Positions 25,141-46,560 of a stretch of DNA of 64,000 nt are shown piece after piece. The notes beneath the pieces were generated by a model. The model saw only the letters and a program-made list of their open reading frames with translations, did not search any database and was not told where the DNA came from. Position 1 is the first letter of the stretch. Every line of letters starts with the position of its first letter. The DNA is from Hexactinellida sp. DTS-2022 (lineage: Eukaryota > Porifera > Hexactinellida). Location of the stretch: NCBI GenBank assembly GCA_028753945.1, contig JAPNXP010000006.1, forward strand, positions 2,604,001 to 2,668,000, written 5' to 3'. The translations under genes were made by a program, and so were the position numbers.

Positions 25141-25639
25141 TTTTCTTATTACTACATACGTATACTATATAATTAAAACTCTATTTATATCATGTTATAA
25201 TTGAAATTAGAATAATTTCGGATCAAATGGAATATACGTATAGCTTGTGCAATAAGTATATTTCCTTTAATTCATTATCAACCAATTATTTAACATCAAT
25301 TAAGATGTATTAATTGAATTCACCTTTCACAACTACCCCCATATACAAGATAATTACAGAATACTGCTTTAAATCTATGGAGAATTTCAATTCGGTCCCT
25401 CAAGGCTGCTGATAAGAATCAGTGGGTGCACTTGGGACACACCTCAGTACCTTTTCCCCGAAATTAACCCATAAATTACTAATTGCACCATAATCCGTGT
25501 TACATAAGCCATATGCAAATACGGCACACTTATCATACAGACAAGCCATATGCCTGGCACACTTGCCAAAAAGCAAGCCACATGCTATCTCGCACACCTC
25601 ATAGAAACCATATGCGTTGCACACTTAGTTACAGACTTC

Positions 25640-26001
25640 AGGCATGGGGCCAAGCCCCAAAAGGCTTAAGCCCTTTGGACTTAAACCCATTTTTTAGAGG
25701 GCTTAAATCCGGACTTAAGTCCTCCTTTAATAAAAAGGCTTAAGTCCGTACTTGGACTTAAGCCCTTTATAGATGAGCTTCAAGCCTTTTCAAGCCCTTT
25801 TTCAAGGCACTTATTCAATAAAATAAGGTATGGATTTCTAAATAATTAAAGTAAAAGGACTTAAGCCCTGTATTAAGGGCTTGAGCTTGGACTTAAGCCC
25901 TTTTTCAAAAAGGGCTTAGAAAAAGGGCTTGGGCTTAAGCCCTTCTGATAAGGGATGGGCTTGGACTTAAGCCCTTTTGAAAGGGCTTGACCCCATGTCT
26001 G
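25640..26001. mobile_element. Hairpin MITE made of CTTAAGCCC-type repeats
   Basis: The ends CAGGCATGGGGCCAAGCCC and GGGCTTGACCCCATGTCTG are inverted. The interior repeats GGGCTTAAGCCC / GGACTTAAGCC about fifteen times in both orientations, so the whole element can fold. The tip resembles hAT ends, but no 8 bp duplication is visible. Confidence 0.65.
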
Positions 26002-26606
26002 ATTTATTATTGTTACTTACTTACAGTTACATGTATTAATTAGCAAAGTATTATTAAACCTGATTGTACTCATAATGACAAACAATAATAGTACCAACCC
26101 CAGGAAAATTTGGAATCTCATAAAGTTATGAAATAGCATAATCCATTATTTGTCAAGAAATTCTATATAAGAAAATAAACGCCAATAGCTAAAATACTAT
26201 TAAATCATGTAGATTGCATCATAGTGGTTCGCACCACTTCCACAATGATTAATGGAATGAAATAGAACTATTAATGACTTTCCTTGATAGATAGGATCAT
26301 TGGGTATACCTAGACATAGCATTATATACATAAGGCAATGGTACGCACTCAAATTTCTGGACCAGAGATTAACTAGTATAGTCAACTAAATAGATGTGAT
26401 TCAATTATTCTTCGAAATAAGTAATCCAGGGTGCTTCTACTTATGTAATTGTTTTTTATAAAGGTGGTCATATACAAGACGCATATTTTTGAGATGCGAC
26501 TTGGGCGAAATGACGTCACTGTATTGTCTAATAGTCCAAATATGCCAGAACTTTGAACGCATGTAAAATGTTCAATTTCGCTTTTAAAACAAAACGCTGT
26601 GAAAAA
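26002..26606. other. No recognised gene
   Basis: AT-rich sequence with short unconvincing frames only. The last 30 bp adjoin the foldback at 26607. Confidence 0.4.
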
Positions 26607-27087
26607 CCCATCTAGGAGCTATTTTACATAAAATATCTCAGAATCAATTATGGAATGTTGACACATTCCTCTGAGCTATGGAAACGTGATTTCAATGCTT
26701 GAGGTCATATCTCGAGAAGAAATATAGTTACAGCTTAGTCAATGGATCCAATTGATAGCCCGTCATCAACTTCCTATTCGATGATAATACATTTCGATGC
26801 TCCATCTCAACCAATTTTGCGCAAAATGTGTATAACCGTTTGAATGTATATTACAATAATCACAATTCTCAGAAAATTGGTTGGAGATAGAGCATCGAAA
26901 TGTATTATCATTGAATAGGAAGTTGAGGACGGGCTATCAATTGGATCCATTGACTAAGCTGTGACTATATTTCTTCTCGAGCTATGACCTCAAGCATTGA
27001 AATCACGTTTCCATAGCAACAGAGGAATGTGCAAACATTCCATAATTGATTCTGAGATATTTTATGTAAAATAGCTCCTAGATGGGT
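26607..27087. mobile_element. Foldback element (copy 2)
   Basis: The arms 26607-26826 and 26872-27087 are inverted copies starting ACCCATCTAGGAGC. They contain AAACGTGATTTCAATGC, TCTCGAGAAGAAATATAG and GCTCTATGGAAACG-type core sequence, with TTTCCATAGCAACAGAGG in the right arm. The loop is about 45 bp. It shares the TTTCCATAGCAAC and GGAATGT-ACATTCC core with the copies at 21855 and 27312. Confidence 0.82.
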
Positions 27088-27092
27088 TACTA

Positions 27093-27297
27093 TTAGAGAA
27101 CCACGGATATTATGATGCTCACTTCCATCACCAAAGATTATGTGAGACAGTGTTCTAAAGAAACAATTCCCATCACCTGTTACAGGAACTATCCTGAAAT
27201 TAAACCGATCTCTTACATTTGTACGCATAAAATCGTAATAACCAGTAGCAGAGACTCTAGACCCAGTATAGTTAGTTGGTCTTAAGGTATTCTCTGT
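27093..27297 (-). pseudogene. OTU cysteine-protease domain fragment
   Basis: The minus strand reads TGSRVSATGYYDFMRTN, then FRIVPVTGDGNCFFRTLSHI and IFGDGSEHHNIRGSLI. The block GDGNCFFRTLS is the catalytic Asp/Cys signature of OTU-family deubiquitinases (D-G-x-C). The histidine-bearing C-terminal part is missing because the foldback at 26607-27087 interrupts it. OTU domains are known passengers of Helentron/Helitron proteins, and the fragment lies on the same strand just downstream of the Helentron endonuclease, separated by the foldback at 27312-28142. It is probably the tail of that element, though a separate element cannot be excluded. Confidence 0.7.
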
Positions 27298-27311
27298 AGA
27301 TTAATTCATTG

Positions 27312-28142
27312 TAGTGCAGCGGCACAACCATACAATTGTTCATTTTTTTGATAAAAGCACCAAAGTTTGTACACCTGTACTTTGATGTAGTTCGAACATT
27401 TTTGGATATTGAGGCAATCGAAAGAGTGTCTAAATCGGCCATGACAGCTCGTCAAAGTTAACACTTCCGATAGTGTTCGCCGGGACTTGTTTCCCATAAA
27501 AAGTTGTTCAAATTATGTTATATCGTCTTTTTATTGTTGAATTCGGTTTCCAAGTAAAAATTCCGATAATTTGATATATCACATGACCATTTTTGGAAGA
27601 ATTTTTTCCATAGCAACGCTGGAATGTACCAGGAATGTGTCAAAAATTCCATTCTCCAATTGTGTACTTACCCAATCGAGTGACCCCTATTTCGACTCCA
27701 ATCAAATTCCTGAGTATAATTATACACATACCGACCCTGTAAAACGTGATTTGATAAAATTCTTCGATATTTATGGTAATCACGGTGAATCTCGAAATTT
27801 TTTATCAAATCACGTTTTACAGGGACGGTATGTGTATAATGTGTATAATTATACTCAGGTAGTGTGATATATCAAATTATCGGAAATTTTACTTGGAAAC
27901 CGAATTCAACAATAAAAAGACGATATAACTTAATTTGAACAAGTTTTTATGGGAAACAAGTCCGGCGAACAATATCGGACGTGTTAACTTTGACGAGCTG
28001 TAATGGCCGATGTAGACACTTTTTGAATTGCATCAATATCCAAAAATGTTCGCACTATATCAAAGTACATGTGTACAAATTTTGGTGCTTTTATCAAAAA
28101 AATGAACAATCTGTTGAAACTTTATGTCTATGCCGCTGGACT
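27312..28142. mobile_element. Foldback element (copy 3)
   Basis: The 831 bp element has arms of about 390-440 bp starting TAGTGCAGCGGCA and ending TGCCGCTGGACTA. Shared blocks are ACTTTGATGTAG, CGTCAAAGTTAACAC, TTGATATATCACA and GTATGTGTATAAT. The left arm holds TTTTTCCATAGCAACGCTGG. The central loop, about 27760-27800, is short. It lies between the Helentron endonuclease and the OTU fragment. Confidence 0.85.
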
Positions 28143-28160
28143 ATTGTGCTAATGACTGCC

Positions 28161-28667
28161 TCAACGTAAAAGTAAATGAATTAGCATTATCATATGTAAT
28201 AATGGGAGACAGCACAGGAGTAGGGATGTATGACTAACAATTACATCCTGAATATCCTTGGTTGTATTATCATTTGGTATTTGGTCAATATCAATAATAT
28301 CATGTTGACTAGTAGCATGTGATATAATTGGTTGATTATCCACATTACTACAGTCACTAACAACAGTTCCAAGAGAAATCAACATTGGCTTATGATCACT
28401 AAAGTATGATTCATAAAAACCAGATGAACAGGTCAAGTTTTTAGTGAATACACAATCCAGGTGAGATCCATAGTTAGTGGATACTCCAGACAAAGATTGC
28501 ATCATCCCTTTATTTGCAAAATACATAATCAAAGTATCTCTCTCAGGAGATCGCGCAAATAAATCTATATTGAAGTCCCCAGTAATTATCAAGGGATCAG
28601 AGTTATCAATTTTACATAGAACCTGATCAAGTTCCGAGTAAATTCCTTCATTGGGGATTGTGGTCAT
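28161..28667 (-). CDS. Helentron endonuclease, C-terminal part
   Basis: This is the second half of an exonuclease-endonuclease-phosphatase fold. NSDPLIITGDFNIDLFARSP carries the catalytic GDFNxD; YGSHLDCVFTKN follows, and YFSDHKPMLISLG gives the SDHxP active-site histidine. It is the continuation of the frame at 28664-29434; the join at 28664 is a small frame break. The tail after residue ~110 is poorly conserved. The enzyme is thought to nick DNA during Helentron mobilisation, and the domain was derived from CR1-like LINEs. Confidence 0.85.
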   Translation of the reverse strand: MTTIPNEGIYSELDQVLCKIDNSDPLIITGDFNIDLFARSPERDTLIMYFANKGMMQSLSGVSTNYGSHLDCVFTKNLTCSSGFYESYFSDHKPMLISLGTVVSDCSNVDNQPIISHATSQHDIIDIDQIPNDNTTKDIQDVIVSHTSLLLCCLPLLHMIMLIHLLLR

Positions 28668-29434
28668 CGGTATATAGACATTACCACGATAGGCTTATCG
28701 ATTATCATGGGATCATAGAACTGGAGAATCAATATCTCGATCCTAGCGCCATTATAACAGCCTGAGTGTGCAACTAAAAACTTACACACCGCTGGATTTC
28801 GGGAGTATATGTGTGTACCAGAACCAGGAAGTCTAGCACTACTATCAATTCTACCAATGAGAGTATGACCAGGGATATGAAAGTTATCAGTGGCTAAAGT
28901 AATTGTCTCCTGCAAGATTAACACTTGGGATTGTACTATGAATGGATTTACGGTCAAATTTTCCCAGTGTTTGTTCAATGAACGAACATTGTGTACATAG
29001 ATATCTGGACTAGTTTGTGGAATAGACCACATAATAGCACAGTGTTCTCTTAACCGCTTAAGTTCTAAGTGGACAGGATCTTTTTCAGATAACTTATTAG
29101 TTAGTTTTAGATTACCAACTACAAACAGACCAGATGCAGATTTAGCCCTACTGAGCGCGGTGTATAACGCATTACGTAGCATACGTAATTCTATATGGAC
29201 TACAACAAAATCGTAAGTATCGCCTTGACTCTTATGAATTGTAAGAGCTTCGGCTACAATGAAAGGAAACTGCTTCCTAACTATCTTATAGGAACTCACA
29301 CCTTTCCCTCTTTGGAAAGGTCGTGTTTCCAAGCCAATAGGAGTCCAGTTCCTTGGAATTGCACTATCTCTAATATAACGATGTTGAGACTTTGCTCGTT
29401 TGTCCTTTCCTACAGTAGGATCATCAAACTCCAT
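28664..29434 (-). CDS. Helentron helicase C-terminus fused to endonuclease N-terminus
   Basis: Residues 1-110 give the end of a Pif1/RecD helicase: RGKGVSSYKIVRKQFPFIVA, EALTIHKSQGDTYDFVVVHI (motif V) and ALYTALSRAKSASGLFVVG (motif VI). From about residue 142 an endonuclease starts in the same frame: PDIYVHNVRSLNKHWENL, VLILQETITLATDNF with the catalytic Glu, and LPGSGTHIYSR. The fusion in one uninterrupted frame is direct evidence for a helicase-endonuclease polyprotein. Confidence 0.87.
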   Translation of the reverse strand: MEFDDPTVGKDKRAKSQHRYIRDSAIPRNWTPIGLETRPFQRGKGVSSYKIVRKQFPFIVAEALTIHKSQGDTYDFVVVHIELRMLRNALYTALSRAKSASGLFVVGNLKLTNKLSEKDPVHLELKRLREHCAIMWSIPQTSPDIYVHNVRSLNKHWENLTVNPFIVQSQVLILQETITLATDNFHIPGHTLIGRIDSSARLPGSGTHIYSRNPAVCKFLVAHSGCYNGARIEILILQFYDPMIIDKPIVVMSIYR

Positions 29435-29910
29435 CCAGAGGATACAGGAAACTCGTTCCAGAGAATCGCTCTTGGTCCATACACTATTTTCTTCAAGAGG
29501 CCAGTAGCTCCATTAACCAGACCATCTTGTATGTCGTTATTCACCGTCATGAGGTATCTAGCGCCCAGCTTCAAGAAGAGCTCATAGGGTAGTCCCTGGG
29601 TGTCACACACCTTTAGGTGTTTAATAAGGTTACTCAGCTTGTCAGTTATACCTCCAGCAGTGTCTCCTACTAAAGAATCAATAGCTATAAATCTAAAACC
29701 TTCAGTGGTTAATGCATTGAGAACAATCTCGTTATGAGCATTAACACTGGCGTTAGTACTAAACAGATGGATAGATTTTATGGGAAGATTCTCATAAAAA
29801 TCTTTCTGTATAATTATAATAGTAAATAGATTTGTGTCATCCTCAGTTAAACAACAGTTAGCAAAATTGTTCAATGCTAATGCAAACTTCTGATCATCTT
29901 TTTGTCTCAT
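29410..29910 (-). CDS. Helentron Pif1-type helicase, middle part
   Basis: The frame contains the helicase 2A/2B region: KFALALNNFANCCLTEDDTN, NAHNEIVLNALTTEGFRFIA, the DTQGLPYELFLKLGARYLMT block and VNNDIQDGLVNGATGLLKKI (Pif1 signature with N-D-x-x-x-G-L-x-N-G). It ends slightly past the start of 28664-29434, into which it shifts frame. The MITE at 29944-30080 separates it from the upstream helicase segment. Confidence 0.85.
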   Translation of the reverse strand: MRQKDDQKFALALNNFANCCLTEDDTNLFTIIIIQKDFYENLPIKSIHLFSTNASVNAHNEIVLNALTTEGFRFIAIDSLVGDTAGGITDKLSNLIKHLKVCDTQGLPYELFLKLGARYLMTVNNDIQDGLVNGATGLLKKIVYGPRAILWNEFPVSSGWSLMILL

Positions 29911-29943
29911 TATTTCCGTCAGTTCTATTATTTATTTAATTTT

Positions 29944-30080
29944 CAGGGTTGATAAAAATCATGATTTTTTTTAAAATTAAAAAAATCCGATTTTTTGATT
30001 TAAATAAGATTTTTTGATTTAAATCAGATCATTGATTTAAATCATAATTTAAATCACTTGATTTAAATCAAACAACCCTG
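29944..30080. mobile_element. hAT-like MITE inside the helicase
   Basis: The ends are CAGGGTTGATAAAAATCATG and TTTAAATCAAACAACCCTG, with an interior of GATTTAAATC palindromes. It lies exactly between two pieces of the helicase reading frame. A near-match GTTCTAT(T/A) occurs just left (about 29922) and right (30081) but not abutting the left tip, so the duplication is imperfect. Confidence 0.75.
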
Positions 30081-30083
30081 GTT

Positions 30084-30847
30084 CTATATATGAGAATTTT
30101 TCCCAAAGGTACGGACCAACCAGTCCGTCGTAATTATTGGCACTGGATACTGAAATTTGAAATACATAGTTGTCCTTAACCGGACGTAACTGATGGAAAT
30201 CTCCAAAACAGATGATGGAGCACCACCAAAGTCCAGTGAATTGTCCATAATGGCTTTCAATCGCTTATTAACCTGAGACAAAATTTTACTACCAACCATG
30301 GAAATTTCATCTATTATAATAACTTTTAAACAGCTTAGCTTACTTCTTAATGTGTTACAAACATCAGAAGATAAATTGGGCATTTCGCCGTTAAACTCCG
30401 TTACAGGTAAAGCAAATGCAGAATGTAGTGTCATACCACGGATTTTAAAAGCAGCTTTACCTGTAGGAGCTGTTAGCAGTACCTTAATTGCATCAGGCTT
30501 AGTGCCAGGTAGTGAATTCATAAATCTCATCAAACCTTCGTATAAGACTCGTACCACCGTACTCTTCCAACACCAGCACCTCCTCCTATATAGAGATACA
30601 TATGCAGCTGCTTCATAGTCTTAAGGCAGTGCAGAGTGTGGAGGAATACAGTACGCTGAACTTTGTTCAAGCTGCGACACATCTGAAGGAATACCTCCTC
30701 AGTATTCATGTTAGGAATATTGAAGAATCCTCCTACAGATTTAGTACCGGGGTCACTATTTGGATCGACTGTCCAGGGATTGTTGTTCCCTGGATTGTCT
30801 ATCTGGAAGTCAGTATCCTCAATAACCACTGCACCCTCATTGTTCAT
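30084..30847 (-). pseudogene. Helentron helicase, Walker A/B region
   Basis: The upstream frame (30530-30847) ends in LYIGGGAGVGR. The downstream frame (30084-30557) starts VRVLYEGLMRFMNSLPG and continues KVLLTAPTGKAAFKIRGMTL, HSAFALPVTEFNGEMP and CLKVIIIDEISMVGSKILSQ (Walker B DE). The two frames meet in the Walker A loop. The DNA after GGTGTTGGA lacks one A, so GKS is lost and the ATP-binding loop is broken by a single-base deletion at about 30562. The family is Pif1/RecD-like 5'-3' helicase, which unwinds the displaced strand in rolling-circle transposition. Confidence 0.85.
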
Positions 30848-31053
30848 TATTTCCTCAATAGCAATCCTATCAAAGCAAGCTCATCAGGGTCCAAGTCCTC
30901 GAGGATATTAATAGCCTCGTCAATTGAGGATTGGTCTCTGCTTTCAAACAGTTCCATATTCTGAGTAATCAGATTAAGGTGGGTAGCATACATAGACTTA
31001 AAGTCGATATTGTCAGTATCACTAGTTTCAACTCTCCATGGTACAAACAGCAT
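30847..31053 (-). pseudogene. Rep-helicase linker of the Helentron
   Basis: The frame reads LFVPWRVETSDTDNIDFKSM, then YATHLNLITQNMELFESRDQ and an acidic stretch. F-x-P-W-R-x-E and the Y..H...I..N...F pattern are typical of the region before the Helitron helicase. It is followed in the next frame by the Walker A segment. The gap upstream, to 31570, contains a hAT MITE and frame-broken sequence. Confidence 0.75.
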
Positions 31054-31311
31054 TAACTGTTCTCTATAAAAGTTAACTTCGTACTGTATAGTGTATAATA
31101 CTATACATTCTAAATCGGATAATTTTAGCTTTACGACGGAGTCTCATAAAACCTGTATTTTTTTAGAGGAAATAATCTCGGATTATCTACCAGGGAAGAT
31201 TCCTCGTCTTCCATATTTCCTCATCAAAGTCGGGAATAGTTTTACACATTCTCTTACTAGATTGGAATTCATATCATGCTGCAAACTCAGCTAGGCATGT
31301 TTCCTCTAACT

Positions 31312-31437
31312 CAGTGGTTCCCAACCTGGGGTCCACAGATGGCTGTAGGGGGTCCACAGGATGTATTACGGTCAATGGGAGGGGGTCCACAGAATGATTA
31401 TAGGGGGTCCACGGTTGAAAAAGGTTGGGAATCGCTG
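31312..31437. mobile_element. 126 bp hAT MITE inside the Helentron
   Basis: The inverted ends are CAGTGGTTCCCAACCTGGGG and AAAGGTTGGGAATCGCTG, the familiar CAGYGGTTCYCAACC hAT (Charlie-like) tip. An exact 8 bp duplication CTCTAACT lies at 31304-31311 and 31438-31445. The interior repeats GGGGGTCCACAG. Confidence 0.93.
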
Positions 31438-31569
31438 CTCTAACTCATCAGGTCGTTGCATGTAGTGCTCAATTAGACCTGATAGAAGTATATCTACAGA
31501 ATCCTGCTCCATACCCATTAGAACGGGTTTAGACTTTATTATCCTAACAATTTATTAGCAGGATTGGTG

Positions 31570-32367
31570 TTAATATAGATCATTTGCTCTGCTGCACTTA
31601 GACAGAGGGAGACTGAGGAGATGATAAGAAACCTCCTGAGCTGATACCTCGCTACAACTCTGAAACTTGTATGCAATTCCCCTCAGTCTCTCTTTAATAG
31701 TGGCATTACCTGCTTTCAGATGCATTAAGGCATCTCTCAACAACTTAGACATCCCACGATGGGACTTTCCGATATACGTAATAACGTAAATAGCACAAGC
31801 GTATGGATCCAATATGTATTGGAGATCCATATTAGTTTTCCAGAGATGCAATATAGTCTTATTATGAGCATTGATTAATATCTCATTCAAATTTCGTTTC
31901 AGAAATATAGTTGGTCTATTTATACAAGATCTCAGTGCAGTTATGTATTGCTCTTCGGTAACATAGAGTTCATTAAAGAAATCCTGTATCGTTATACTAC
32001 TTAATTCAGTATCGCTCTTATCATAGGTGTCAATGAGAGTATATATTTTCTTAGCAGTCTCCTTATGAGCTGCATTAGCAGCTATCTCCTCTTTGGTAGC
32101 CGTACTGGCATCAAACTCCAATGGTTCTAAAATTTTAGTTGAAACCACTGGAGGGTACGGAATACCAAACCTACAGCGCCGAAACGACTTTTTCTTATAA
32201 CACGTATTTGTGTGCTTATGTCGCTGTAACTTAATGTCATCCTCAGTTATTATACTAGTCTCATCTGGCAATTTACATGAGATAGTACGATCAATACATT
32301 TTAGTACTTCATTTAACGGAGTGTGGTCATACTTAGGGGCATTTTGTACCCAAAGTAATGAATGCAC
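31570..32367 (-). CDS. Helentron Rep (HUH nuclease) domain
   Basis: The frame begins HSLLWVQNAPKYD, directly after the HUH histidines (P-H-V-H; the first His lies across a one-base frame break near 32370). It continues with a Cys/His cluster (KHTNTCYKKKSFRRCRFGIP), then LKRNLNEILINAHNKTILHL and YACAIYVITYIGKS. The last block is an exact YxxxYxxK motif with the two catalytic tyrosines. These are the defining residues of Helitron Rep, which nicks and joins single strands at the element ends. Confidence 0.9.
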   Translation of the reverse strand: MHSLLWVQNAPKYDHTPLNEVLKCIDRTISCKLPDETSIITEDDIKLQRHKHTNTCYKKKSFRRCRFGIPYPPVVSTKILEPLEFDASTATKEEIAANAAHKETAKKIYTLIDTYDKSDTELSSITIQDFFNELYVTEEQYITALRSCINRPTIFLKRNLNEILINAHNKTILHLWKTNMDLQYILDPYACAIYVITYIGKSHRGMSKLLRDALMHLKAGNATIKERLRGIAYKFQSCSEVSAQEVSYHLLSLPLSKCSRANDLY

Positions 32368-32840
32368 ATGTGGGACCCTCTTTGTTGAAATTCTATTCTC
32401 AAATAGTAATCAGTCAATTTACCAAGGGGACTAACCTCTGATCGAAGTACCTTAAATAGCTCCTTGGAGCGGTGATCAAAGTACCTAGCACAAGTGACAG
32501 GATCTCTCCTTATCAGATCTGCTCTCTCGCTCCACTGGAATTCCAGAACCTCTTCAACAGACAGCTTAACGTCATTTAGGATCTGTTTCAGTATCCTCAG
32601 CAGCTGTAGCCATTTAATCTCAGCAGCAGCAGAGTTAGAAAGAACGTGGGACATCCCAGCTGTCCTATCATAGACATCAGCTCTCTCTGTTTCTGCTGCC
32701 AGAATGCGGGGGTAGACCGGACTTGCTTTAAGAACTTAAAAGCCTCATCGTCCTCAACCATTCTCTCCAGATTATCGTCATTGAGAACATCAGACACAGT
32801 TATAGCCTGTCCGTCTGTAGACTTAGTCTTTCTCATACAA
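32313..32840 (-). pseudogene. Helentron Helitron_like_N region
   Basis: Two overlapping frames (32597-32836 and 32313-32654) read RSTPAFWQQKQRELMSMIGQ, LGCPTFFLTLSAAEIKW, LQLLRILKQ, DPVTCARYFDHRSKELFKVL and YYLRIEFQQRG. These are the standard blocks preceding the HUH motif (yW....L.amI.qlG.PtfFlTlSaaE..W; dPv.ca.yf..r...f). A frameshift near 32645 joins the two. Confidence 0.85.
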
Positions 32841-33104
32841 ATATTGATAGCATTGTTTGGCTAGCTGTCTCCACCAGTTTGTACTTGAGAAGCAGCAGAG
32901 GGATGTTAGTGCTACATCTCCTATTATATCTAAAGATGGAAGTAATTTGGAACTTAGCTAAATGTAATTGAAATAGTTAATCTATTATTGGACCATGGAT
33001 ATCTAAAATAATTTACTTTAATAAATATCCATAAATATCCAAAATACCCTTTATAGAAAAAGATTGAGATTATAAGTACGCATTATAAAACTATAAAACT
33101 AACC

Positions 33105-33930
33105 TCAAAATGTCAGACTTTGATTTATTGAGGATAGATAAGTCCTCAGGTAAGTCTCTGTGGAGACCAGCAACACACAAGGGTAAGCTAGTTCTTCTAT
33201 AAACCTATCCGTGGATAAGTACAGAGGCTTCCTCCCATCTCCAGGAGCCAATTTCATTAGTAGGTTCTCATTAGACAGCAGCAGTGTGCCTAAAGAACCA
33301 GGGTTAATGGGGAAATCATCCTTGGTCTCATCCCAATCATCAATCTCCTTCAACAACTCCTCAAGGTTATTGAAGAGCTCCTCAATAGAAGGAACGGTCT
33401 CAGAATCCTCTTGTTCTTCATCCACAACTATATCACAAGGCTCGTAATTCGGGTTAACAATAAAATTAATATTACCAGAACCAGTACGTGTTACAGAGTT
33501 AACCCAATCCTCTGAAACTACTACCTTCTCTAGCTTGAAGAGCTCAGTGGTAGAGAGATAGAGAGCCGCTTCTAACACTACATTCGGTCTTATCGTTTCG
33601 TATAAATACGGTTTCGCGAACGATAACTTACGAAACAATGCAACTGAATGGTTTGGGACTGTAAGAAATTCCTAGGTAACTGATTAACAGTCTTATCTAC
33701 GTCTATGGGAACATTTACAACCATGCCATGAGTCCGTGCTGTCTCTCCCTGCCCAGAGATCTGATGTTCATGAACTCGTGTCTGGGAGATACCAGTCTCT
33801 GTTCTATCACAGTCAGACCAGATAGCTCAGGGGGGATCTCGGTGAAAGACAAGCCACGGCATAACGCTATTTAGGGACTCTGCCATATTTTATATTAATC
33901 AGACAGGTCTTACACACATACTCCATGTTG
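33105..33930 (-). pseudogene. Helentron N-terminal region (DUF6570-like and following)
   Basis: From 33930 the minus strand reads YVCKTCLINIKYGRVPK, then GLSFTEIPPELSGLTVIEQR, LVSQTRVHEHQ and MVVNVPIDVDKTVNQLPRNF, the Helitron-associated DUF6570 pattern with its CxxC. After a frame break, 33105-33638 reads SFAKPYLYETIRPNVVLEAA, an acidic region, and LAPGDGRKPLYLSTDRFIEE followed by LAYP, the PGxG..P motif. This region normally precedes Helitron_like_N. Confidence 0.82.
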
Positions 33931-34287
33931 ACTGTCTCATAGAGAAAAATCTAAATAGAAATAATTATAGATAAAATTAATAAGATTAATTGAAGATTAT
34001 ATTTAATACCTACTTATCAATAAATAATTTCTAAATAAATCTTATTATATTAAAAGATATTGATAATAATACCAATGGAGTATAATATAATTACCTGTTT
34101 GACGAAATCATGTTTGCACACATTCTTTGAAACAAGTTTTTCTCTCTTACGAATGACAACTGTTTTTCCTGAAATGGAGACATCCACAGCAAGAACAAAC
34201 AAAATGGGGCCTTCACTATCTCACATAGATATTTGAAAATAACCGACTTAAGTGCACCTAGCATAGTACTATATCTATCTATCTCAG

Positions 34288-34530
34288 CTAGGTTGGTTTC
34301 ATTTTCTCTTTAGAGTCTATCCGTTTCTTGGCAATAGCGTAATTATGCTTTGCCCTCTCAGCCGGATCCTTAAGTTTAGCTGCAACAGATGCATTATGCT
34401 TAGCCTTCTCAGCTGGATCCTTGAGCTTATCTGCAATAGCGGCATTATGTTTAGCCCTCTCAGCTGGATCCTTGATCTTATTTGTCATTCTCTTCGACTC
34501 ATCACTATTATGTTTCGGTCGTGTTTCAGG
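34288..34530 (-). CDS. Basic 15-residue repeats at the Helentron N-terminus
   Basis: Three or four copies of a repeat of the form (D/K)KxKDPAE(R/K)AKHNAxIA are followed by KKRIDSKEK. The frame continues upstream of the first Met (RPKHNSDESKR) without a stop until the P palindrome at 34549, so the true N-terminus has been removed. Such lysine-rich repeats are common before the Cys-rich region in Helitron-like proteins and may bind DNA; that role is inference. Confidence 0.7.
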   Translation of the reverse strand, partial: PETRPKHNSDESKRMTNKIKDPAERAKHNAAIADKLKDPAEKAKHNASVAAKLKDPAERAKHNYAIAKKRIDSKEKMKPT

Positions 34531-34548
34531 TTGCTCTCGATCGTTTTT

Positions 34549-37130
34549 ACTGTGCCGACTATACTATAGTATAGTGGCCCAGTTTTAATCTTACTGCCTT
34601 GGTTATTATTATTCTTCCGTAGCCACTCCACAGAACAGAGTTTTATTAACTAAGAGCCCAAATTTTCAGGATATGTGTCTCATGGGTTACAGATGTGCAC
34701 CTGGGGTATCGATTTTTGATAACATTTTTTTGGATTCATTTTTGAACCTGTTTAATGTTAAAAAAGTAACAATAAATAGTCCTCGAAAATTCAATTTATA
34801 TGCATTCGATAGGAATTAAATTCTACACCTTTTCACATTGCACGAATTTTCAAATTGAGCTGCAATTTTGGATTTTTATTATTGGTCCGTAGATCGTACA
34901 CAGAGCAGAGTTTAATTAACTAAGAACTGAAATTTTCAGGACTGGTGTCTCATTGGTTACAGATGTGCACCTGGGGTCACGATTTTTGATTACATTTTTT
35001 GGACACATATTAAAACCTGTTTAATGTTAGAAAAGAAACAAAAATTGGTGCCCGAATATTTAATTTATTTGCATTCGATAGAGGATTAAATTCTACACCT
35101 TTTCACAGTGCACGAATTTTCAAATTGGGCTTCGTTTGTGCCACAATTGAGTTGCAAATTTCATTTGTTTGCTAACACTTCAGTTTAAATAAAGTGTTAT
35201 ATCTAATTCTATTGTTTCGACTTGTAATAATCATATTGATTCAACTTGTGAGATCGAGTAGGCTTATATTTTTAATTGAAAACTATGATTTTACATTCCT
35301 TAACAACGACAGAATATGTGATTATATTTACTGCAGGAATACTGTTGCCCTATAAATATACTGACGTAATTAATTATAATTAATTCAGTCAGTATATGAC
35401 TTATATAGATGCTTCCAATTTGTTTGTTTATTAGGGGGTATCGAGTGTGCGGAATTTAAATTCTATAACCAAATTAATTAATTTATTATTTATGACAAAA
35501 TAATTTAACTTAATAATTTTAAGTTGACATTGAAATTGGTGTTATATTATAAATAATATTAATAATTAATTATACTAATTAATATATATCATAAATCTCA
35601 GAGATTATACAAGATAGAAACAAACTTCCAATTAACCAATCGGTCCTTATGCCACGTACCACCTATACAAGTGGGTCTTGACACTTTGAGGTGATGATGA
35701 AATCGTCAAAAAAAATGCATTTACAATTTTGTGAATTAAATAATTCGCATGGGTTGGTTGGAGTTGGGTGAACACCCAACACGCACTTAAAACACGCACT
35801 TGATAACATGGCTGAAAAAAATCCAAAATTGCAGCTGTGCCGACGCATGTTCCTTTGGTGGCACTATATTTTGGTGGTGGTTTATTGATAGTGCCTCCAA
35901 TGGGACATGCTGTCAGCACAGCTGCAATTTTGGATTTTTTTTCGCCATGTCATCATCACTATGAAGGTGTTAAAATATATCAAAAGGAGTTACAGAAGGC
36001 ATCGACCCTTAGAGTGGCGGAAGTTTCCATTTAGTTCACTTCATTTTAGAGATATTCAAGTTTGAGTAGAATATAATAGCTGATGACTCAGCATTTTTTA
36101 TGTGAGCTCTGGGTCATCACCCAAAACGAACCGACCCATTTGAATTATATAATTCACAAAATTGTGAAAACACATTTTTTTTACGATGTCATCATCACCT
36201 CAAGGTGTCAAGACCCACTTTTATAGGTGTTACGTGGCATAAGGATCAATTGATAAATTGGAAGTGTGTTTCTATCTTATTTGATTTCTGAGATTTATGA
36301 TATTTAATTAATTAGTATAAATAATAATTAATATTATTTATTATTTAACACCAATTTCAATGTCAACTTACAATTATTAAATTAAATTATTTTGTCATGA
36401 ATAATTAATTAATTATTTTGTTATCAAATTTCAATTAAGCACTCTCGATAACCCCTAATAAACAAATTATAAGCATCTAAATAAGTAATATACTGACTGA
36501 ATTAATTATAATTAATTACGTCAGTATATTAAGAGTGCAATAATATTCTCGCAGAAGTAAATATAATCACATAAACTGTCGTTGTTGTGAAATTTATAAT
36601 CTTTTTTCCAATTGGAAAATAGAAGCCTACTCGATCTCACAAGTTGAATCAATATTATAATAACGAGTTGAAACAATAGAATTAGATTTAACACTTTCAA
36701 TTGAACTGAAGTGTTAGTAAACAAAGGAAACTTGCAACTCAATTGTGGCACAAACTAAGTACAATTTGAAAATTCGTGCACTGTGAAAAGGTGTAGAATT
36801 TAATTCTCTATCGAATGCATATAAATTGATTATTCGCGCACTATTTATTGTTCTTTTTCTAACATTAAACAGGTGCAAAAATGTGTCCAAAAAAATGTGA
36901 TATAATATCGTGACCCCAGGTGCACATCTGTAACCCATGAGACACATATCCTGAAAATTTCAGTTCTTAGTAATTACAACTCTGTTCTGTGGAGACAATA
37001 TGGACCAATAATAACCAAGGCAGTAAGATTAGAACTGGGCCACTATACTATAGTATAGTCGGCACAGTAATAAAGGCAGTGATTCCAATACTGGGCCACT
37101 ATACTATAGTATAGTCGGCACAGTAATAAT
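34549..37130. repeat. Large inverted-repeat unit: P - R(-) - H - R(+) - P P
   Basis: A P palindrome (34549-34590) opens the unit. Next comes the minus-oriented repeat R: about 34620-34870, then again 34885-35818 with a junction at a TGCAATTTTGGAT scrap. An H hairpin at the centre (35819-35941) is followed by the plus-oriented R (to about 36990) and two P palindromes (37028-37128). Opposed arms share GACACATATCCTGAAAATTT and CCCCAGGTGCACATCTG at the outside and ACGATGTCATCATCACC near the centre. The extreme ends ACTGTGCCGAC and GTCGGCACAGT are inverted repeats. No protein is encoded. Confidence 0.8.
35819..35941. repeat. H hairpin at the centre of the inverted unit
   Basis: The inverted arms TCCAAAATTGCAGCTGTGCC and GCACAGCTGCAATTTTGGA enclose GACGCATGTTCCTTTGGTGG, CACTAT and their complement. 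Nine versions occur in the window: 23424, 25025, 35819, 37143, 38768, 39604, 41038, 42472 and 59588 (the last partial). All carry the TGTGCCGAC core, sometimes as TGCGCCGAC, which is also present in the P palindromes. Confidence 0.85.
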
Positions 37131-37139
37131 AATAATAAT

Positions 37140-40100
37140 AAAAAAATCCAAAATTGCAGCCTGCGCCGACAGCATGTTCTTTTGGAGGCACTATCAATAA
37201 ACAACCAACAAAATATAGTGCCACCAAAGGAACATGCGTCGGCACAGGCTGGAATTTTGGATTTTTTTTTATTACTGTGCCGACTATACTATAGTATAGT
37301 GGCCCAGTATTGGAATCACTGCCTTTATTTTTACTGTGCCGACTATACTATAGTATAGTGGCCCAGTATTGGAATCACTGCCTTTATTATTATTTTTATT
37401 ATTACTGTGCCGACTATACTATAGTATAGTGGCCCAGTATTAGAATCACTGCCTTTATTTATATTATTATTATTTCTCCGTAGCAGGTGCCCTGGCCACA
37501 CCTGTATACATAGAGGGCTGAAACTTGGCATGTAGATTCGGAGTCGACGTCTAATTTGCACCTGGGGTTACGATTTTGTATTAACAAATTTTTGACACAT
37601 CTTTAACACCTTTCAAAATTTGTCTGGTCCATAACTCAAAAAATGTTTTACTAAACCCCAAAATTTTATTTCACATTTGGATTCGCCATAAAATTTTGCG
37701 TCTGATGGGAGAAGAAATTTTTCAATAAAGGGGTCAATTTCTGCCATAAATGGGGGTTGAAATTTCTTTGTTTACTGACACTTCAATTTCAGTAAAGTGT
37801 TAAATCTAATTCTATTGTTTCAACTTGTAATAATTATATTGATTTAACTTGTTAAATCCTACTCTAGTGATTCAACTTGCGATAATTATATTGATTTAAC
37901 TTATAAATTCCAGCTGGCTTCTATTTAATTTTAGTATTACTATACAATTGATTAAATTAAATAATATAATATAAGGAATTTGTTGACTCAACTCAACCAA
38001 CCATGGATAACATTGCTAAAATAAATAACTAATAATATAATTTATTATCAATACATAATGAATGAATGGCATTAAACTAAAGATGGTTTATGATAGAACC
38101 GTTAAGATTTTACATTCCACAACAACGACAGATTAAGTGATTATATTTATTTCGGCGAGAATATTCTTGCACAATTAATGACTGACTTAATTAATTATAA
38201 TTAATTCATTTTGTATTTAACTTATAGACGGTTCCAAATAGATTATTGGGGTTATCGAGTGCGTGGAATTCAAATATTATAGTGAAATTCAATTTAAATT
38301 AATAACATTGCAAATAATTGAACTTAATTTATTTTGCTGTATATAATAATGGTGTTAAATAATAAATAAATAAATTAAATATTTATACTAACTAGATAAA
38401 TTTCATTAATCTCAGAGATGATACAAGATAGAAACAAACTTTCAATTTATCAATTGGTCCTTATGCCAGGTACCACCTATACAAGTGGGTCTTGACACCT
38501 TGAGGTGATTATGACATCGTCAAAAAAATGTACTTTTACAATTTTTTTAATTCGATATTTAAAATGGGTTAGTTGATGTTGGGTGATGACCCAACACACA
38601 CATAAAAAATGCTGAGTCATCAGCTATTATATTCTACTCAAACTTGAATATCTCTAAAATTATATGAACTAAATGGAAACTTCCACCACTCTAAGGGTCG
38701 ATGCCTTCTGTAACACCTTTTTGAAATAATTTAACACCTTCATAGTGATGATGACATGGCGAAAAAAATCCAAAATTGCAGCCTGCGCCGACAGAATGTT
38801 CTTTTGGAGGCACTATAAATAAACAACCAACAAAATGTAGTGCCACCAAAGGAACATGCGTCGGCACAGGCTGCAATTTTGTTATTTCTCCGTAGCAGGT
38901 GCCCTGGCCACACCTATATACATAGAGGGCTGAAACTTGGCATGTAGGTGCGATGGGACCGTATAATTTGCACCTGGGGTTACGATTTTTAATTAACACA
39001 TTTTGGACACATCTTTAACACCTTTCAAAATTTGTCTGGTCCATAACTAAAAGAATGTTTTACTAAACCCCAATTTTTATTACATATTTGGATTCACCAT
39101 AAAATTCTGCGTCTAATGGGAGAAGAAAATTTACATTAAAGGGTTTAATTTCTGCCATAAATGGGGGCTGAAATTTCTTTGTTTACTCACACTTCAATTT
39201 CAGTAAAACTGTGAAATCTAATTCCATTGTTTCAACTTGTAATAATTATATTGATTTAACTTGTTAAATCTTACTCTATTGATTCAACTTGCGATAATTA
39301 TATTGATTTAACTTATAAATTCCAGCTGGCTTCTATTTAATTCTAGTATTACTATATAATGGATCAAATATAATATAATAATATAAGGAATTTGTTGACT
39401 CAACTCAACCAACCGTGGATAACAATGCTAAAATAAATTACTAATAATATATTTTATTATCAATACATAATGAATAAATGGCATTAAACTCTTGATGGTT
39501 TATGATAGAAACAAACTTCAAATTCAACAATCGTTCCTTGTGACTCCGCCCAATCAACAAATGGTTCTTCACACCTTGGGCGTTAATGACTTGGCGAAAA
39601 AAAATCCAAAATTTCATCCTGTGCCGACGCATGTTCCTTGGGGTGCACTATATTTTGGTTGTGGTTTATTGATAGTGCCTCCAAAGGAACATGCTGTCGG
39701 CACAAGCTGCAATTTTGGATTTTTTTTCGCCATGTCATCATCACTATGAAGGTGTTAAATTATTTCAAAAAGGTGTTACAGAAGGCAACGACCCTTATTG
39801 AGATGTAAGTTTCGTTTTTGATCACTTCATTTCAAAGATATTCAAGTTTCAGTAGAATATAATAGCTGATGACTCAGCATTTTTTATGTGAGTGTTGGGT
39901 CATCACCCAACATCAACTAACCCATTTTAAATATCGAATTAACAAAATTGTAAAAACACATTTTTTTGACGATGTCATAATCACCTCAAGGTGTCAGGAC
40001 CATCTTGTATAGGTGGCACGTGCCATAAGGACCAATTGAAAAATTGAAAGTTTGTTTCTATCTTGAATCATCTCTGAAATTAATGAAATTTAGGTAATTA

Positions 40101-43100
40101 GTATAAATATTTAATTAATTTATAATTATTTAACACCATTATTATATACAGCAAAATAAATTAAGTTCAATTATTTGCAATTATTATTAATTTAAATTGA
40201 ATTTCACTATAAAATTTGAATTCTACGTACTCGATAACCCCAATAATCCAATTGGAACCGTCTATAAGTTAAATACAAAAGGAATTAATTATAATTAATT
40301 ACGTCAGTACATTAATTGTGCAAGAATATTCTCGCCGAAATAAATATAATCACTTAATCTGTCGTTGTTGTGGTATGTAAAATCTTAACGGTTCTAACAT
40401 AAACCATCTTTAGTTTAATGCCATTCATTCATTAATTATTGATAATAAATTAAATTATTAGTTATTTATTTTAGCAATGTTATCCACGGTGAGTAGAGTA
40501 AAGTCAATAAATTCCTTATATAATAATATTTTATTTAATCCATTGTATAGTAATACTACAATTAAATAGAAGCCAGCTGGAATTTATAAGTTAAATCAAT
40601 ATAATTATAGCAAGTTGAAACAATAGAGTAGGATTTAACAAGTTAAATCAATATAATTATTACAAGTTGAAACAATGGAATTAGATTTCACAGTTTACTG
40701 AAATTGAAGTGTGAGTAAACAAAGAAATTTCAACCCCCATTTATGGCAGAAATAAAACTCTTTATAGAAAGTCTTATTCTCCCATCAGACGCAGAATTTT
40801 ATGGTGAATCCAAATATGAAATAAAAATTGGGGGTTTAGTAAAACATTTTTTGAGTTATGGACCAGACAAATTTTGAAAAGTGTTAAAGATGTGTCCAAA
40901 ATTTGTTAATCAAAAATCGTAACCCCAGGTTCAAATTAGAAGGACCTTCCACATCTACATGCCAAGTTTCAGCCCTCAATGTATAAAGGTGTGGCCAGGG
41001 CACCTGCTACGGAGAAAAATAATAAAAATAATAATAAAATCCAAAATTGCAGCCTGTGCCGACGCATGTTCCCTTGGTGGCACTATATTTGGGTCGTGGT
41101 TTATTGATAGTGCCTCCAAAGGAACATTCTGTCGGCACAGGCTGCAATTTTGGATTTTTTTTTTGCCAAGTCATCATCACTATGAAGGTGTTAAATTATT
41201 TCAGAAAGGTGTTTCAGGAGGCATCGACCCTTAGAGTGGTGGAAGTTTCCATTTAGTTCACTTAATTTTAGAGATATTCAAGTTTGAGTAGAATATAATA
41301 GCTGATGACTCAGCATTTTTTATGTGAGTGTTGGGTCTTCACCCAACTTCAAATAACCCATGCGAATTATTTAATTCACAAAATTGTAATAATACATTTT
41401 TTTGACGATGTCATAATCACCTCAAGGTGTCAAGACCCACTTGTATAGGTGGTACCTGGCATAAGGACCAATTGATAAATTGAAAGTTTGTTTCTATCTT
41501 GTATCATCTCTGAGATTAATGAAATTTAGCTAATTAGTATAAATATTTATTTAATTTATTAATTATTTAACACCATTATTATATACAGCAAAATAAATTA
41601 AGTTCAATTATTTGCAATTATTATTAATTTAAATTGAATTCCACTATAATATTTGAATTCCACGCACTCGATAACCCCAATAATCTATTTGGAACCATCT
41701 CTATACGGTAAACACAGAGCGAATTAATTAGAATTAAATATGTCAGTACATTAATTGTGCAAGAATAGTCTCGCCGAAATAAATATTATCACTTAATCTG
41801 TCGTTGTTGTGGTATGTAAAATCTTAACGGTTCTATCATAAACCATCTTTAGTTTAATGCCATTCATTCATTACTTATTGATAATAAATTAAATTAGTAG
41901 TAATTTATTTTAGCAATGTTATCCACGGTGATTTGAGTTTAGTCAACAAATTCCTTATATCATTATATTTTATTTAATCCATTGTATAGTAATACTACAA
42001 TTAAATAGAAGCCAGCTGGAATTTATAAGTTGAATCAATATATTTATCTCAAGTTGAAACAATAGAGTAAGATTTAACAAGTTAAATCAATATAATTATT
42101 ACAAGTTGAAACAATAGAATTAGATTTAACACTTTTACTGAAATTGAAGTGTGAGTAAACAAAGAAATTTCAAACACCATTTATGGCAGAAATTAAACAT
42201 ATTTTTGAAAATATTCCTCTCCCATCAGACGCAGAATTTTATGGTGAATCCAAATGTGAAATAAAATTTGGGGGTTTAGTAAAACATATTTTAAGTTATG
42301 GACCAGACAAATTTTGAAAGGTGTTAAAGATGTGTCAAAAATTCGTTAATCAAAAATCGTAACCCCAGGTGCAAATTAGACGGTCCATACGCACCTACAT
42401 GCCAAGTTTCAGCCCATCAACTATAAAGCTCAGGCCAGGGCACCGTCTACGGAGAAAAAATAAAAATAAAAAATCCAAAATTGCATCCTGTGCCGACGCA
42501 AGTTCCTTGGGTGGCACTATATTTTGTTGGTGGTTTATTGATAGTGCCTCCAATGGAACATGCTGTCGGCACAGGATGCAATTTTGGATTTTTTTTCGCC
42601 AAGTCATCATCACTATAAAGGTGTTAAATCATTTCAAAAAGGTGTTACAGAAGGCATCGACCCTTAGAGTGGTGGAAGTTTCGTTTTAGTTCACTTCCTT
42701 TTAGCGATATTCAAGTTTGAGTAGAATATAACAACTGATGACTCAGCATTTTTTATGTGAGTGTTGGGTCATCACCCAACATGAACTAACCCATTTTTAA
42801 TATCAAATTAACAAAATTGTAAAAACACATTTTTTTAACGATGTCATCATCACCTCAAGGTGTCAAGACCCACTTGTATAGGTGGCACGTGCCATAAGGA
42901 CCATTTGATAAATTGAAAGTTTGTTTCTATCTTCTATGATCTCTGAGATTTATGATATTTAATTAATTAGTATATATAATTATTAATATTATTTATAATT
43001 TAACACCAATTTCAATGTCAACTTATATTTATTAAGTTTAATTATTTTGTCATAAATAATAAATAAATTAATTTGTCCATCAAATTTCAATTCCGCACAC

Positions 43101-44767
43101 TCGATAACCCCTAATAATAAAATTGGAAGCATCTATATAAGTCATATACTGACTGAATTAATTATAATTAATTACGTCAGTATATTAACAGTGCAATAAT
43201 ATTAACGCAGAAGTAAATATAATCACATAATCTGTCGTTTTGTGGTATATAAAATCTTAACGGTTCTATCATAAACCATCTTTAGTTTAATGCCATTCAT
43301 TCATTACTTATTGATAATAAATTAAATTATTAGTTATTTATTTTAGCAATGTTATCCACGGTGAGTAGAGTAAAGTCAATAAATTCCTTATATAATAATA
43401 TTTTATTTAATCCATTGTATAGTAATACTACAATTAAATAGAAGCCAGCTGGAATTTATAAGTTAAATCAATATATTTATCTCAAGTTGAAACAATAGAG
43501 TAAGATTTAACAAGTTAAATCAATATAATTATTACAAGTTGAAACAATAGAATTAGATTTAACACTTTTACTGAAATTGAAGTGTGAGTAAACAAAGAAA
43601 TTTCAAACCCCATTTATGGCAGAAATTAAACATATTTTTGAAAATATTCCTCTCCCATCAGACGAAAATTTTTATGGTGAATCCAAATGTGAAATAAAAT
43701 TTGGGGGTTTAGTAAAACATATTTTGAGTTATGGACCAGACAAATTTTGAAAGGTGTTAAAGATGTGTCAAAAATTCGTTAATCAAAAATCGTAACCCCA
43801 GGAGCAAATTAGACGGTCCATACGCACCTACATGCCAAGTTTCAGCCCATCAACTATAAAGCTCTGGCCAGGGCACCGTCTACGGAGAAAAAATAAAAAA
43901 AATAAAAATAATAAAGGCAGTGATTCCAATACTGGGCCACTATACTATAGTATAGTCGGCACAGTAAAAAATAATAAAGGCAGTGTTTCTAATACTGGGC
44001 CACTATACTATAGTATAGTCGGCACAGTAATAATAAAGGCAGTGATTCCAATACTGGGCCACTATACTATAGTATAGTCGGCACAGTAATAATAAAGGCA
44101 GTGATTCCAATACTGGGCCACTATACTATGGTATAGTCGGCACAGTAATAATAAAGGCAGTCATTCCAATACTGGGCCACTATACTATAGTATAGTCGGC
44201 ACAGTAATAAAAATAATAAAGGCAGTGATTCCAATACTGGCCCACTATACTATAGTATAGTCGGCACAGTAATAAAGGCAGTGATTCCAATACTGGGCCA
44301 CTATACTATAGTATAGTCGGCACAGTAATAATAAAGGCAGTCATTCCAATACTGGGCCACTATACTATAGTATAGTCGGCACAGTAATAAAAATAATAAA
44401 GGCAGTGATTCCAATACTGGCCCACTATACTATAGTATAGTCGGCACAGTAATAAAGGCAGTGATTCCAATACTGGGCCACTATACTATAGTATAGTCGG
44501 CACAGTAAAAATAAAGGCAGTGATTCCAATACTGGGCCACTATACTATAGTATAGTCGGCACAGTAATAATAATAAAGGCAGTGATTCCAATACTGGGCC
44601 ACTATACTATAGTATAGTCGGCACAGTAAAATAATAATAATCGGTAACCAAAGCACTGAAGATTAGAACTTGGCCACTATACTATAGTATAGTCGGCACA
44701 GTAATAACTAACCAAGGCACTGAGATTAGAAATGGGCCACTATACTATACTATAGTCGGCACAGTAA
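37140..44767. repeat. Complex cluster of H/R/P units, subfamily R'
   Basis: The order is H (37143-37272), three P (37272-37460), R'(-) (37467-38765), H (38768-38882), partial R'(-) (38885-39598), H (39604-39729), R'(+) to about 41020, H (41038-41163), R'(+) to about 42455, H (42472-42597), R'(+) to about 43895, then the P array. The three plus-oriented units repeat with a period of about 1.43 kb. R' starts or ends at CTCCGTAGCAGGTGCCCTGG and GGGCTGAAACTTGGCATGTA, which distinguishes it from R. Short (AAT/AAAAT)n runs lie at the unit joints. No open frame of note occurs. Confidence 0.8.
43914..44767 (+). repeat. 14-copy tandem array of the P palindrome
   Basis: The unit is 56-65 bp: AATAAAGGCAGTGATTCC, AATACTGGGCC, the 18 bp perfect palindrome ACTATACTATAGTATAGT, then CGGCACAGTA and a variable AT-rich spacer. 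A three-unit block of 180 bp (44161-44340) is repeated almost exactly from 44341. The last two units diverge (CTAACCAAGGCACTGAGATT) and match the P next to subfamily R, so both P types meet here. Confidence 0.9.
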
Positions 44768-44769
44768 AA

Positions 44770-46560
44770 AATGTTGATTACTAAACCCAAACTCAAAACG
44801 AATATAACTATAATATATATCATATTTACCTATACATAAATGTATAACAGGGTTTGCAATGCAAAATTAGTGGAAATGTATTACAAAAATACACTATATT
44901 TATGAAACAATTTACAAGACTATATACAAATAAATGGCTAAAGAGATGAATTATTAGTTACCCAACACAGACAGTTTAGACAGGACACATACAATACAAC
45001 AGCTACACTATACCAATACCGCTATAACCTAGCTGATAATAGTCTCCTAATTAGCCCTAACCTGGTGGTGAATCCCAGATAGCAGGTACTCATATATAGC
45101 GTAACTATTGTAATTACAATACTAAACTATGTAAACCAGACACAGCTCAGACAAGACACATACATCAGTCGATTCTGATTAATTGGGTCAAACTATCCTC
45201 GGATCAAAGTTACCCAATTAAGCGGAGTCAACTGTGTTTAAACTAGGGCTGAAACGAATATACCGAATATTCGTTCGAAATGATTGAACGAATATTCGTT
45301 CGTTTGAAAGAATATTAGATTGAACCGGATATCGTTAACCACTTTTCGATAACATGACTTGTGTTTAGATTGGAGAGATCGTCAATATACATTCCTACCT
45401 AAACTAATCTTTGTAATATCTAAATTATGTCTAATACTTTATCGCTAGGATTAAACTATTGCAACATAAACAAATAACTATTTTCCACTGTATTTACAGT
45501 CTTGAATTTGGTTTAGCTTAGCTATCAAAACGAATGAATATTCGAATATTCGTTTCAGCCCTAATAGTAACCGAATCGAATTTTTCTTTCACATTTGGGA
45601 ACCTTGCATATCAAAGTATATTTGGAAATGCTAATACAAGAAATGTGGACTTTGTTATATTTCATGAAATTGACTTGTCTATCTCCTTAATTTTTTCACG
45701 TCACTCCTGAATATTTACTGCCATGAATTTTTATTGGGCTTTTTCGTTTATCCTACTGGCTATACTTTTGGCTCATTGATTAACCATAGAATAGACAATG
45801 AAATTCCAAAAAGTTGGCGCGATGGACTCTTCAAAAAGCTAGGATTTGTATAGAACCCAATAATCTAGCAGAAGCCATCAATAATCACCCAGAAAGAGAT
45901 GTTTTGAGGATGATAGCGATATTGACAAACTTTGATTATATAGTAGTTGTACAACATTTAGTTTATAAATAATAAATATACATAAATATAGGACCTATAT
46001 CTTCTGGATATTTTGTTGATATTAGGTGTTAGAAATATATCAATATTCAATGGATATCCATGGATATCCAAAAAAAATGGTCTGGAAATGGATATGGATA
46101 TGGATGCGATTTTTCATCTCCACGGCAAGCCTGATGACAACAGTCATCGATCTTTTGTATTGTACGTATGCATTGTCAACACTTAACTTAATCTGCAACG
46201 TAGCATTTTTCGTGTAAATAAATGCATGACAATAGCTGATTATTCTATTTGCTTCGATTTTCAACTCTTACTTTCTATTCTGCAAACAGCATTGATGCAC
46301 GACAAGATTTATGTTTTGACTAGTGGATTAAAGCTTCACTTGCAGTGCGAAACTGCACCATGTGATGCAAATATCATTCATCAGTCAACATATATACCAT
46401 GTATAAAAATTATATTACTTTCTGAAGATCAAAGGAATTGATGAATAACTATGTATTACATATTTTGAGTTTAAATGCTCCAATTAATTAATGTTTTTCT
46501 GCTACAGGCATTGAAATTTTATTTTATTTTACAAGACTTAATAATTAAACAATTCTCTTA
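44770..46560. other. AT-rich region with one hAT-like MITE and a MITE scrap
   Basis: No gene is recognised. A TTAAGCGGAGTCAACTG scrap of the MITE family at 24233 lies near 45219. Two related phrases, CAGACAGTTTAGACAGGACA and CAGACACAGCTCAGACAAGA, lie near 44968 and 45138. A GGATATCC-rich patch with a self-complementary AATGGATATCCATGGATATC core is at about 46045-46110. Confidence 0.4.
45244..45563. mobile_element. hAT-like MITE with AGGGCTGAAACGAAT ends
   Basis: The left end TAGGGCTGAAACGAAT and the right end ATTCGTTTCAGCCCTA are inverted repeats. The interior is rich in GAATATTCG palindromes at both ends. No exact 8 bp duplication is visible (GTTTAAAC versus ATAGTAAC share five positions). 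Confidence 0.65.

Follow-up and report, generated by a model that had tools for sequence, protein, structure and literature searches.

The window analyzed in this study, a stretch of 64,000 nucleotides from the glass sponge Hexactinellida sp. DTS-2022, contains a cluster of repeat units bounded by two hairpins, H and P, together with a 5'-truncated Helentron and the two halves of an interrupted target repeat, F (Table 1). Read in the coding sense, an element starts with P (TT/ACTGTGCCGAC…) and ends with H, a hairpin of 108 nt, followed by Ts. The two types of unit body, R and R', have their first 665 bp in common at 89% identity and are mostly different in the remainder, and a short form of R' is also frequent. 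The sequence-only reading had placed the units between H and P, and this arrangement was borne out, with a unit length of about 0.7–1.3 kb.

Table 1. Features of the cluster and its surroundings (positions in the window).
Feature	Positions	Strand	Evidence or remark
Left half of target repeat F	23177–23419	.	Alignment with intact F copies runs to within 3 bases of the 44766 breakpoint
H, 3' end of 21-kb composite insert in F	23422–23520	-	BLAST to H; fold z -10.7; empty site
R' 1–75 joined to Helentron 3' tail motif	23531–23645	-	Tail motif at 23615; it recurs in Helentron copy L091
Two P hairpins, 5' end of + unit	23650–23780	+	
R-type unit body, interrupted by other repeat at 24223–24398	23796–24976	+	
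H adjoining Helentron 3' tail	25020–25139	+	
Helentron, 5' truncated in N-terminal coding region	25140–34548	-	
Unit: P (34549–34583) and R body	34549–35817	+	Junction with Helentron at TTTTT/ACTG
H common to two head-to-head units	35818–35938	.	
Unit with R body and a pair of P (35-nt cores 37034–37068, 37090–37124)	35939–37124	-	
H between two P groups (single tail-to-tail case)	37143–37265	.	
R' unit: three P, R' body, H (38765–38881)	37274–38881	+	
Short R' unit (part of R' 624–1242)	38885–39600	+	
H common to two head-to-head units	39601–39722	.	
R' body; its 3' H is 39601–39722	39723–41030	-	
Unit: H (41036–41158) and R' body	41036–42465	-	
Unit: H (42470–42592), R' body, 14 P (43907–44765)	42470–44765	-	5' end of composite insert
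Right half of target repeat F	44766–45565	.	
Truncated H and partial R, broken by other repeat	59601–60393	-	BLAST

Several further features were observed in the window. Two overlapping frames on the minus strand at 11403–14005 encode a THAP-domain, P-element-like transposase (THAP 2e-14; Tnp_P_element 0.0019, below its cut-off), and two stretches of a 139–141-bp tandem repeat, 93% alike, occupy 61821–62893. A search with the CD225-domain ORF at 5450–5998 gave six relatives (Oopsacas minuta, a glass sponge, at 63% identity; three others at 76–88%), which points to a hexactinellid as the probable host. The repeat at 24223–24398 within an R unit is a small palindromic element (arms GTCAACTCCGCTTAAT...). 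In the unit at 23422–23645, R' 1–75 is fused to a tail motif that is present in the Helentron copy on C2, and the stretch 23531–23645 is a probable deletion derivative of the Helentron. The copy previously placed at 59586 has been corrected to a truncated H with a partial R.

Motif counts and folding showed that both hairpins, at the positions first proposed for them, are far beyond chance. For the motif TGTGCCGAC, with at most one mismatch, the window has 44 occurrences where 4.4 would be expected, and the maximum among 100 shuffles was 10. Folding of one H (122 nt) gave -52.4 kcal/mol (z -14.8) and folding of one P gave z -4.7; a 3' palindrome, as expected of a Helentron or HINE, was found in all three of the H copies folded (z -10.7 to -14.8). 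Across the 112.4-Mb genome of 18 contigs, the P core ACTGTGCCGAC was counted 7,147 times versus 9 for its reversed control, with TT before 6,648 of the 7,147, and the H arm 6,491 times versus 0 for its control. By BLAST in the mapped loci, 157 P monomers were found in 60 runs of 1–14. A regular expression caught 123 of these 157, with TT preceding 121 of the 123, and the run lengths obtained from it were discarded. Among 15 aligned P rows, the 11 that represent outer edges all begin with AA (TT in the sense strand), and the other four lie inside window arrays. A subterminal inverted core of 10 bp, CTGTGCCGAC / GTCGGCACAG, is present at both ends, compared with 11–15 bp in the Helentrons described in PMC4067079. 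From the GTGCCGAC core common to H and P, it may fairly be inferred that one protein recognizes both. A known structured RNA was ruled out, since Rfam gave no match at gathering score.

To describe the arrangement of the units, H, R, R' and P were mapped in 53 non-overlapping genome loci and in part of the window; these loci are the best-scoring matches (29 of 4,125 and 23 of 3,638 candidates scored) and not a random sample. Fifteen of 68 loci were removed for overlap before the junction count and 16 before the outer-edge count, the additional one being L051, a near-identical twin of L050; the junction count includes L051. In these data, 139 of 147 two-sided H junctions were head-to-tail, seven were head-to-head and one, at 37143 in the window, was tail-to-tail. 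The order H-R-P was also obeyed by 472 of 481 neighbor pairs, in a test that is lenient because H had no assigned orientation, so that the head-to-tail count is the stronger of the two. The arrays are thus repeats of H–R–P^n, mostly head-to-tail. The basic plan P-R(-)-H-R(+)-P proposed from the sequence alone is therefore a local head-to-head pair and not the rule, and its extension to a giant foldback with H at the center is not supported, the unit being P-R-H in the coding sense. Independent movement of H, R and P, named at the outset as a possible refutation, was not seen among the genome copies; an apparent solo H at L083 was rejected as such, since a decayed short R' remnant (56 bp, 82%) lies where one would be expected. 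At L015, L025 and L036, a single unit stands between two flanks that are unrelated.

The position of P within the arrays is strongly uneven. Of the 18 outer 5' edges, 13 carry P, whereas of the 153 inner junctions 34 do and the other 119 do not (p 4e-5, Fisher test). The remaining outer edges consist of three cut R, two of which are short or weak R matches, and two H (L020 and L050); without the two H edges, the proportion is 13 of 16 (p 4e-6). The outer edge of L027, where P points in the wrong direction, was set apart from the 18. In the window, the tandem units have a period of 1.41–1.44 kb, and their copy number is variable. Multi-unit blocks common to different contigs, namely 3.56 kb at 99.4% (C1/C4) and 2.1 kb at 98% (C1/C14), fit block movement or duplication. 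Separately, L050 and L051, about 15 kb apart on C7, are 99.9% identical across 4.4 kb including flank, which would represent either a recent segmental duplication or an assembly duplicate.

The Helentron on the minus strand contains an in-frame Helitron_like_N domain at 32313–32735 (2e-9, Pfam), a PIF1 domain at 30084–30620 (9e-11), a UvrD_C_2 domain at 28664–29512, an endonuclease (Exo_endo_phos_2) at 28161–28694 with E 7e-6 and 26.3 bits against a Pfam cut-off of 27.4, and a weak OTU-like match at 26965–27300 (E 0.054). Rep, a PIF1-type helicase and a C-terminal endonuclease, the combination by which a Helentron is recognized, were therefore found in the window copy, and long open frames were found elsewhere: a 279-aa piece of the Helentron gave 102 genome match rows, 20 of which lie in open frames of 1,652–1,709 codons. 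The missing 5' part of the window copy was sought within the window and not found. Two other palindromic repeats are nested in this copy, at 26315–27089 (dozens of copies, up to 96% identity) and 27335–28110. In addition, GGVELNPGP is readable by eye in the DNA upstream of the Helentron Rep exon at L085 and L086, a peptide that we take to resemble the 2A ribosome-skipping motif.

The relationship between the units and the Helentron was evident at both ends, read on different copies. Upstream of the coding exons, two of the long-frame, intact-looking copies, on C11 and C15, contain R 679–1076 or 679–1056, reversed, with an identical inner breakpoint at R 679. Two further places extend beyond this breakpoint within the 5' piece, one of them across the full 900 bases at 87%; as evidence to the contrary, 41 of 44 matches stop short of leaving the R part (40 of 3,184 candidates scored). 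At the other end, the copy at C1:9200370, with a frame of 1,699 codons, has its tail followed by R 108–1 reversed, then H, then a T run, and two more Helentron copies have the H-proximal part of R and H 56 bp past the tail, according to coordinates only. In contrast, the C2 copy has no R or H within 462 bases past its tail, and the C11 copy runs from its tail into an R' unit without H. The ends that a HINE shares with its autonomous partner were accordingly found, although the tails on C2 and C11 do not show the 3' end. At the 5' ends read on two autonomous copies, H precedes R in one and an R remnant in the other, and P directly before R was found at neither. On autonomous copies, the 5' region (two copies) and the 3' region with H (one read, two by coordinates) are there, and P stands at no autonomous 5' end read; both ends together on one autonomous copy were never seen among the copies read. 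These alignments indicate that the units and the Helentron have both end regions in common and differ in the body. Since the R body (108–665) was not found as a Helentron part in any Helentron sequence examined, R does not appear to be a simple internal deletion of those copies. When 32 Helentron copies (taken from the 102 match rows) were compared with 50 R/R' places, five copies had such a place no more than 15 kb away, against 0.39 expected, a comparison that general clustering of repeats may inflate.

Breakpoints in F and in the Helentron provided evidence on insertion. The left P of the cluster begins where six other Helentron copies continue with coding sequence, these copies aligning up to 34548 (three), 34546 (two) and 34530 (one). 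The right P adjoins F, and the missing half of F lies 21 kb away at 23177–23419, next to H. The empty F site, ...CAACATTTATTTTAATTTAATCGG..., is exact in two of eight F copies, with small changes in the rest, and at the filled site the sequence is ...CAACATTTTTT/P ... H...CTTTTTAATTTAATCGG. In the simplest reading, everything between the two halves of F would be one insert, beginning with P (5') and ending with H (3'), in a T-rich target that was not duplicated; this 21-kb stretch has a complex interior, with units of either orientation and the 5'-truncated Helentron. Because halves of one F repeat flank them, the copy at 23424, formerly described as isolated, is placed in the same insert as the cluster and appears to be one of its ends, and an independent copy was rejected since its F half-site matches that at 44766. 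Beyond Ts, no duplication was seen at the empty sites, whether those of F or that of the Helentron, and by eye none was found in the three single units with both flanks (L015, L025, L036), in keeping with the earlier remark that no standard target duplication is present. Insertion into TT or T-rich sites without duplication characterizes Helentrons and HINEs, and the P cores after TT and the empty sites observed here agree with it. A TA-duplicating TIR element, suggested by TTA...TAA at P, was rejected, as the empty sites show only Ts.

Based on the shared ends and the T-rich insertion without duplication, the most fitting classification of R and R' is as HINEs, and the cluster is very probably a stack of such non-autonomous rolling-circle transposons of one Helentron family. 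The sequence-only reading had regarded the units as fitting no known class, which is not supported, and had named HINEs as one candidate, which now has good support: the genome contains Helentrons whose end regions are the same, a Helentron is present in the window, and the target and flanks fit. Other classes were considered and rejected. Foldback or TIR transposons have long terminal inverted repeats and a target duplication, and here a single unit has the structure P-R-H, with neither long inverted ends nor a duplication. Satellite DNA, as tandem monomers without transposon ends, does not agree with single insertions and empty sites. Canonical Helitrons have 5' TC and 3' CTRR ends, and the present elements start with TT/ACTGTGCC and end with GGATTTT. 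Canonical insertion takes place between A and T (PMC4067079).

An independent foldback or MITE-like family, into a few places of which Helentrons inserted, would account for hairpins at both ends, for Helentrons near R/R' loci beyond expectation (5/32 vs 0.39) and for the H adjoining the window Helentron, but it is an improbable explanation in view of the identical R 679 breakpoint that precedes the Helentron genes of both C11 and C15, the R 1–108 and H in matching orientation after another Helentron copy, and the T-rich target with no duplication seen. Even less probable is ordinary satellite DNA formed by unequal exchange alone, with no mobility; the tandem period and variable copy number agree with it, but single units amid unrelated flanks, exact empty sites and the spread across many contigs do not. 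Unequal exchange can still act on arrays after insertion. As for an assembly artefact of collapsed inverted reads, raised at the outset as a possible refutation, the inverted pieces in the window might suggest it, but we consider it extremely unlikely, because arrays and single units with unrelated flanks follow the same grammar on many contigs, and the units are several percent different from each other.

Within the Helentron reading, the main rival for array growth is the insertion, as a block, of rolling-circle concatemers produced by read-through of a circular intermediate. Head-to-tail order, the multi-unit blocks common to C1/C4 and C1/C14 and the P at outer 5' edges are consistent with such concatemers, whereas a circle junction predicts P at each junction, in conflict with the 119 of 153 inner junctions that are without P, and the shared blocks could be segmental duplication or gene conversion. 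This origin of the arrays is possible, though doubtful. HINE arrays probably grow, instead, by same-orientation self-insertion into T-rich linkers together with unequal exchange.

The proposed element plan in the coding sense is T-tract, P (1–14), (TTA)n, 5' region, body, 3' region, H and T-tract. In this plan, P is the palindromic 5' subterminal repeat, the 5' region measures about 400 bp and the 3' region about 108 bp, and H is the long 3' hairpin with an identical core on both arms. The autonomous body comprises Rep, a PIF1-type helicase, endonuclease and an OTU-like region, and that of R about 570 bp of non-coding DNA. Following published Helitron and Helentron models, Rep/helicase would nick at P, displace a strand and stop at H, and the displaced strand would be joined into T-rich DNA without target duplication. 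Because the linkers are T-rich in the sense strand, copies newly arriving between units may all face one way, and P could then be multiplied or removed by unequal exchange at (TTA)n and H, as could the units themselves by unequal exchange. It is further possible, if on balance unlikely, that the arrays constitute a self-assembling transposon satellite, in which the linkers serve the same Helentron protein as orientation-locked landing pads, so that elements stack head to tail through targeted self-insertion, in which repeated P are multiplied start sites, and in which an array together with the Helentron inside it (the 21-kb insert in F is an example) can move as one composite from outermost P to outermost H.

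Several of these properties are already in print. The Helentrons and HINEs described by Thomas, Vadnagara and Pritham 2014 (PMC4067079) have in common with ours Rep/helicase with a C-terminal endonuclease, in some cases accompanied by OTU genes, subterminal inverted repeats that are palindromic (mite, Culex), a 3' palindrome, a T-rich target with variable flanking Ts and no target duplication, and non-autonomous families with the ends of an autonomous partner. The 3' subterminal repeat lies inside the 108-nt hairpin here, whereas in mite Helentrons it is 38–60 bp from the end with a separate palindrome of 5–10 bp (PMC4067079), and, unlike the Helentrons of that paper, the present family has a 5' palindrome repeated up to 14 times and whole units in arrays. 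Satellite-like repeats inside HINEs are likewise known from Cg_HINE of the Pacific oyster (PMC7492417), non-autonomous Helentrons that also carry a microsatellite and a 3' palindrome; however, their tandem repeats are inside one element, whereas here the repeat unit is the whole element, and linking them to an autonomous partner did not succeed, whereas a partner was identified here. Whole elements in tandem were reported for Helitrons by Pritham and Feschotte 2007 and Xiong et al. 2016, as cited in PMC7492417; according to the latter, inner copies are often 3' truncated, whereas our inner units keep the 3' hairpin and are mostly without the 5' P. Our literature search, which covered few subscription journals, found neither repeated 5' ends nor HINE arrays in which the 3' hairpin is retained and the 5' end lost, and no paper on Helentrons in sponges. 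The present family is unusual in having P repeated up to 14 times, a long 3' hairpin within which the subterminal repeat lies, whole units arrayed like a satellite, and P mostly at the outer edges.

This study ties a family that numbers in the thousands (112 Mb of genome contain 7,147 P cores) to a glass-sponge Helentron. With its many long open Helentron frames, a 5' end present 1–14 times and a very strong 3' hairpin, this genome is a natural system in which to examine what start site and terminator each do when a Helentron transposes, and also how transposons give rise to satellites.
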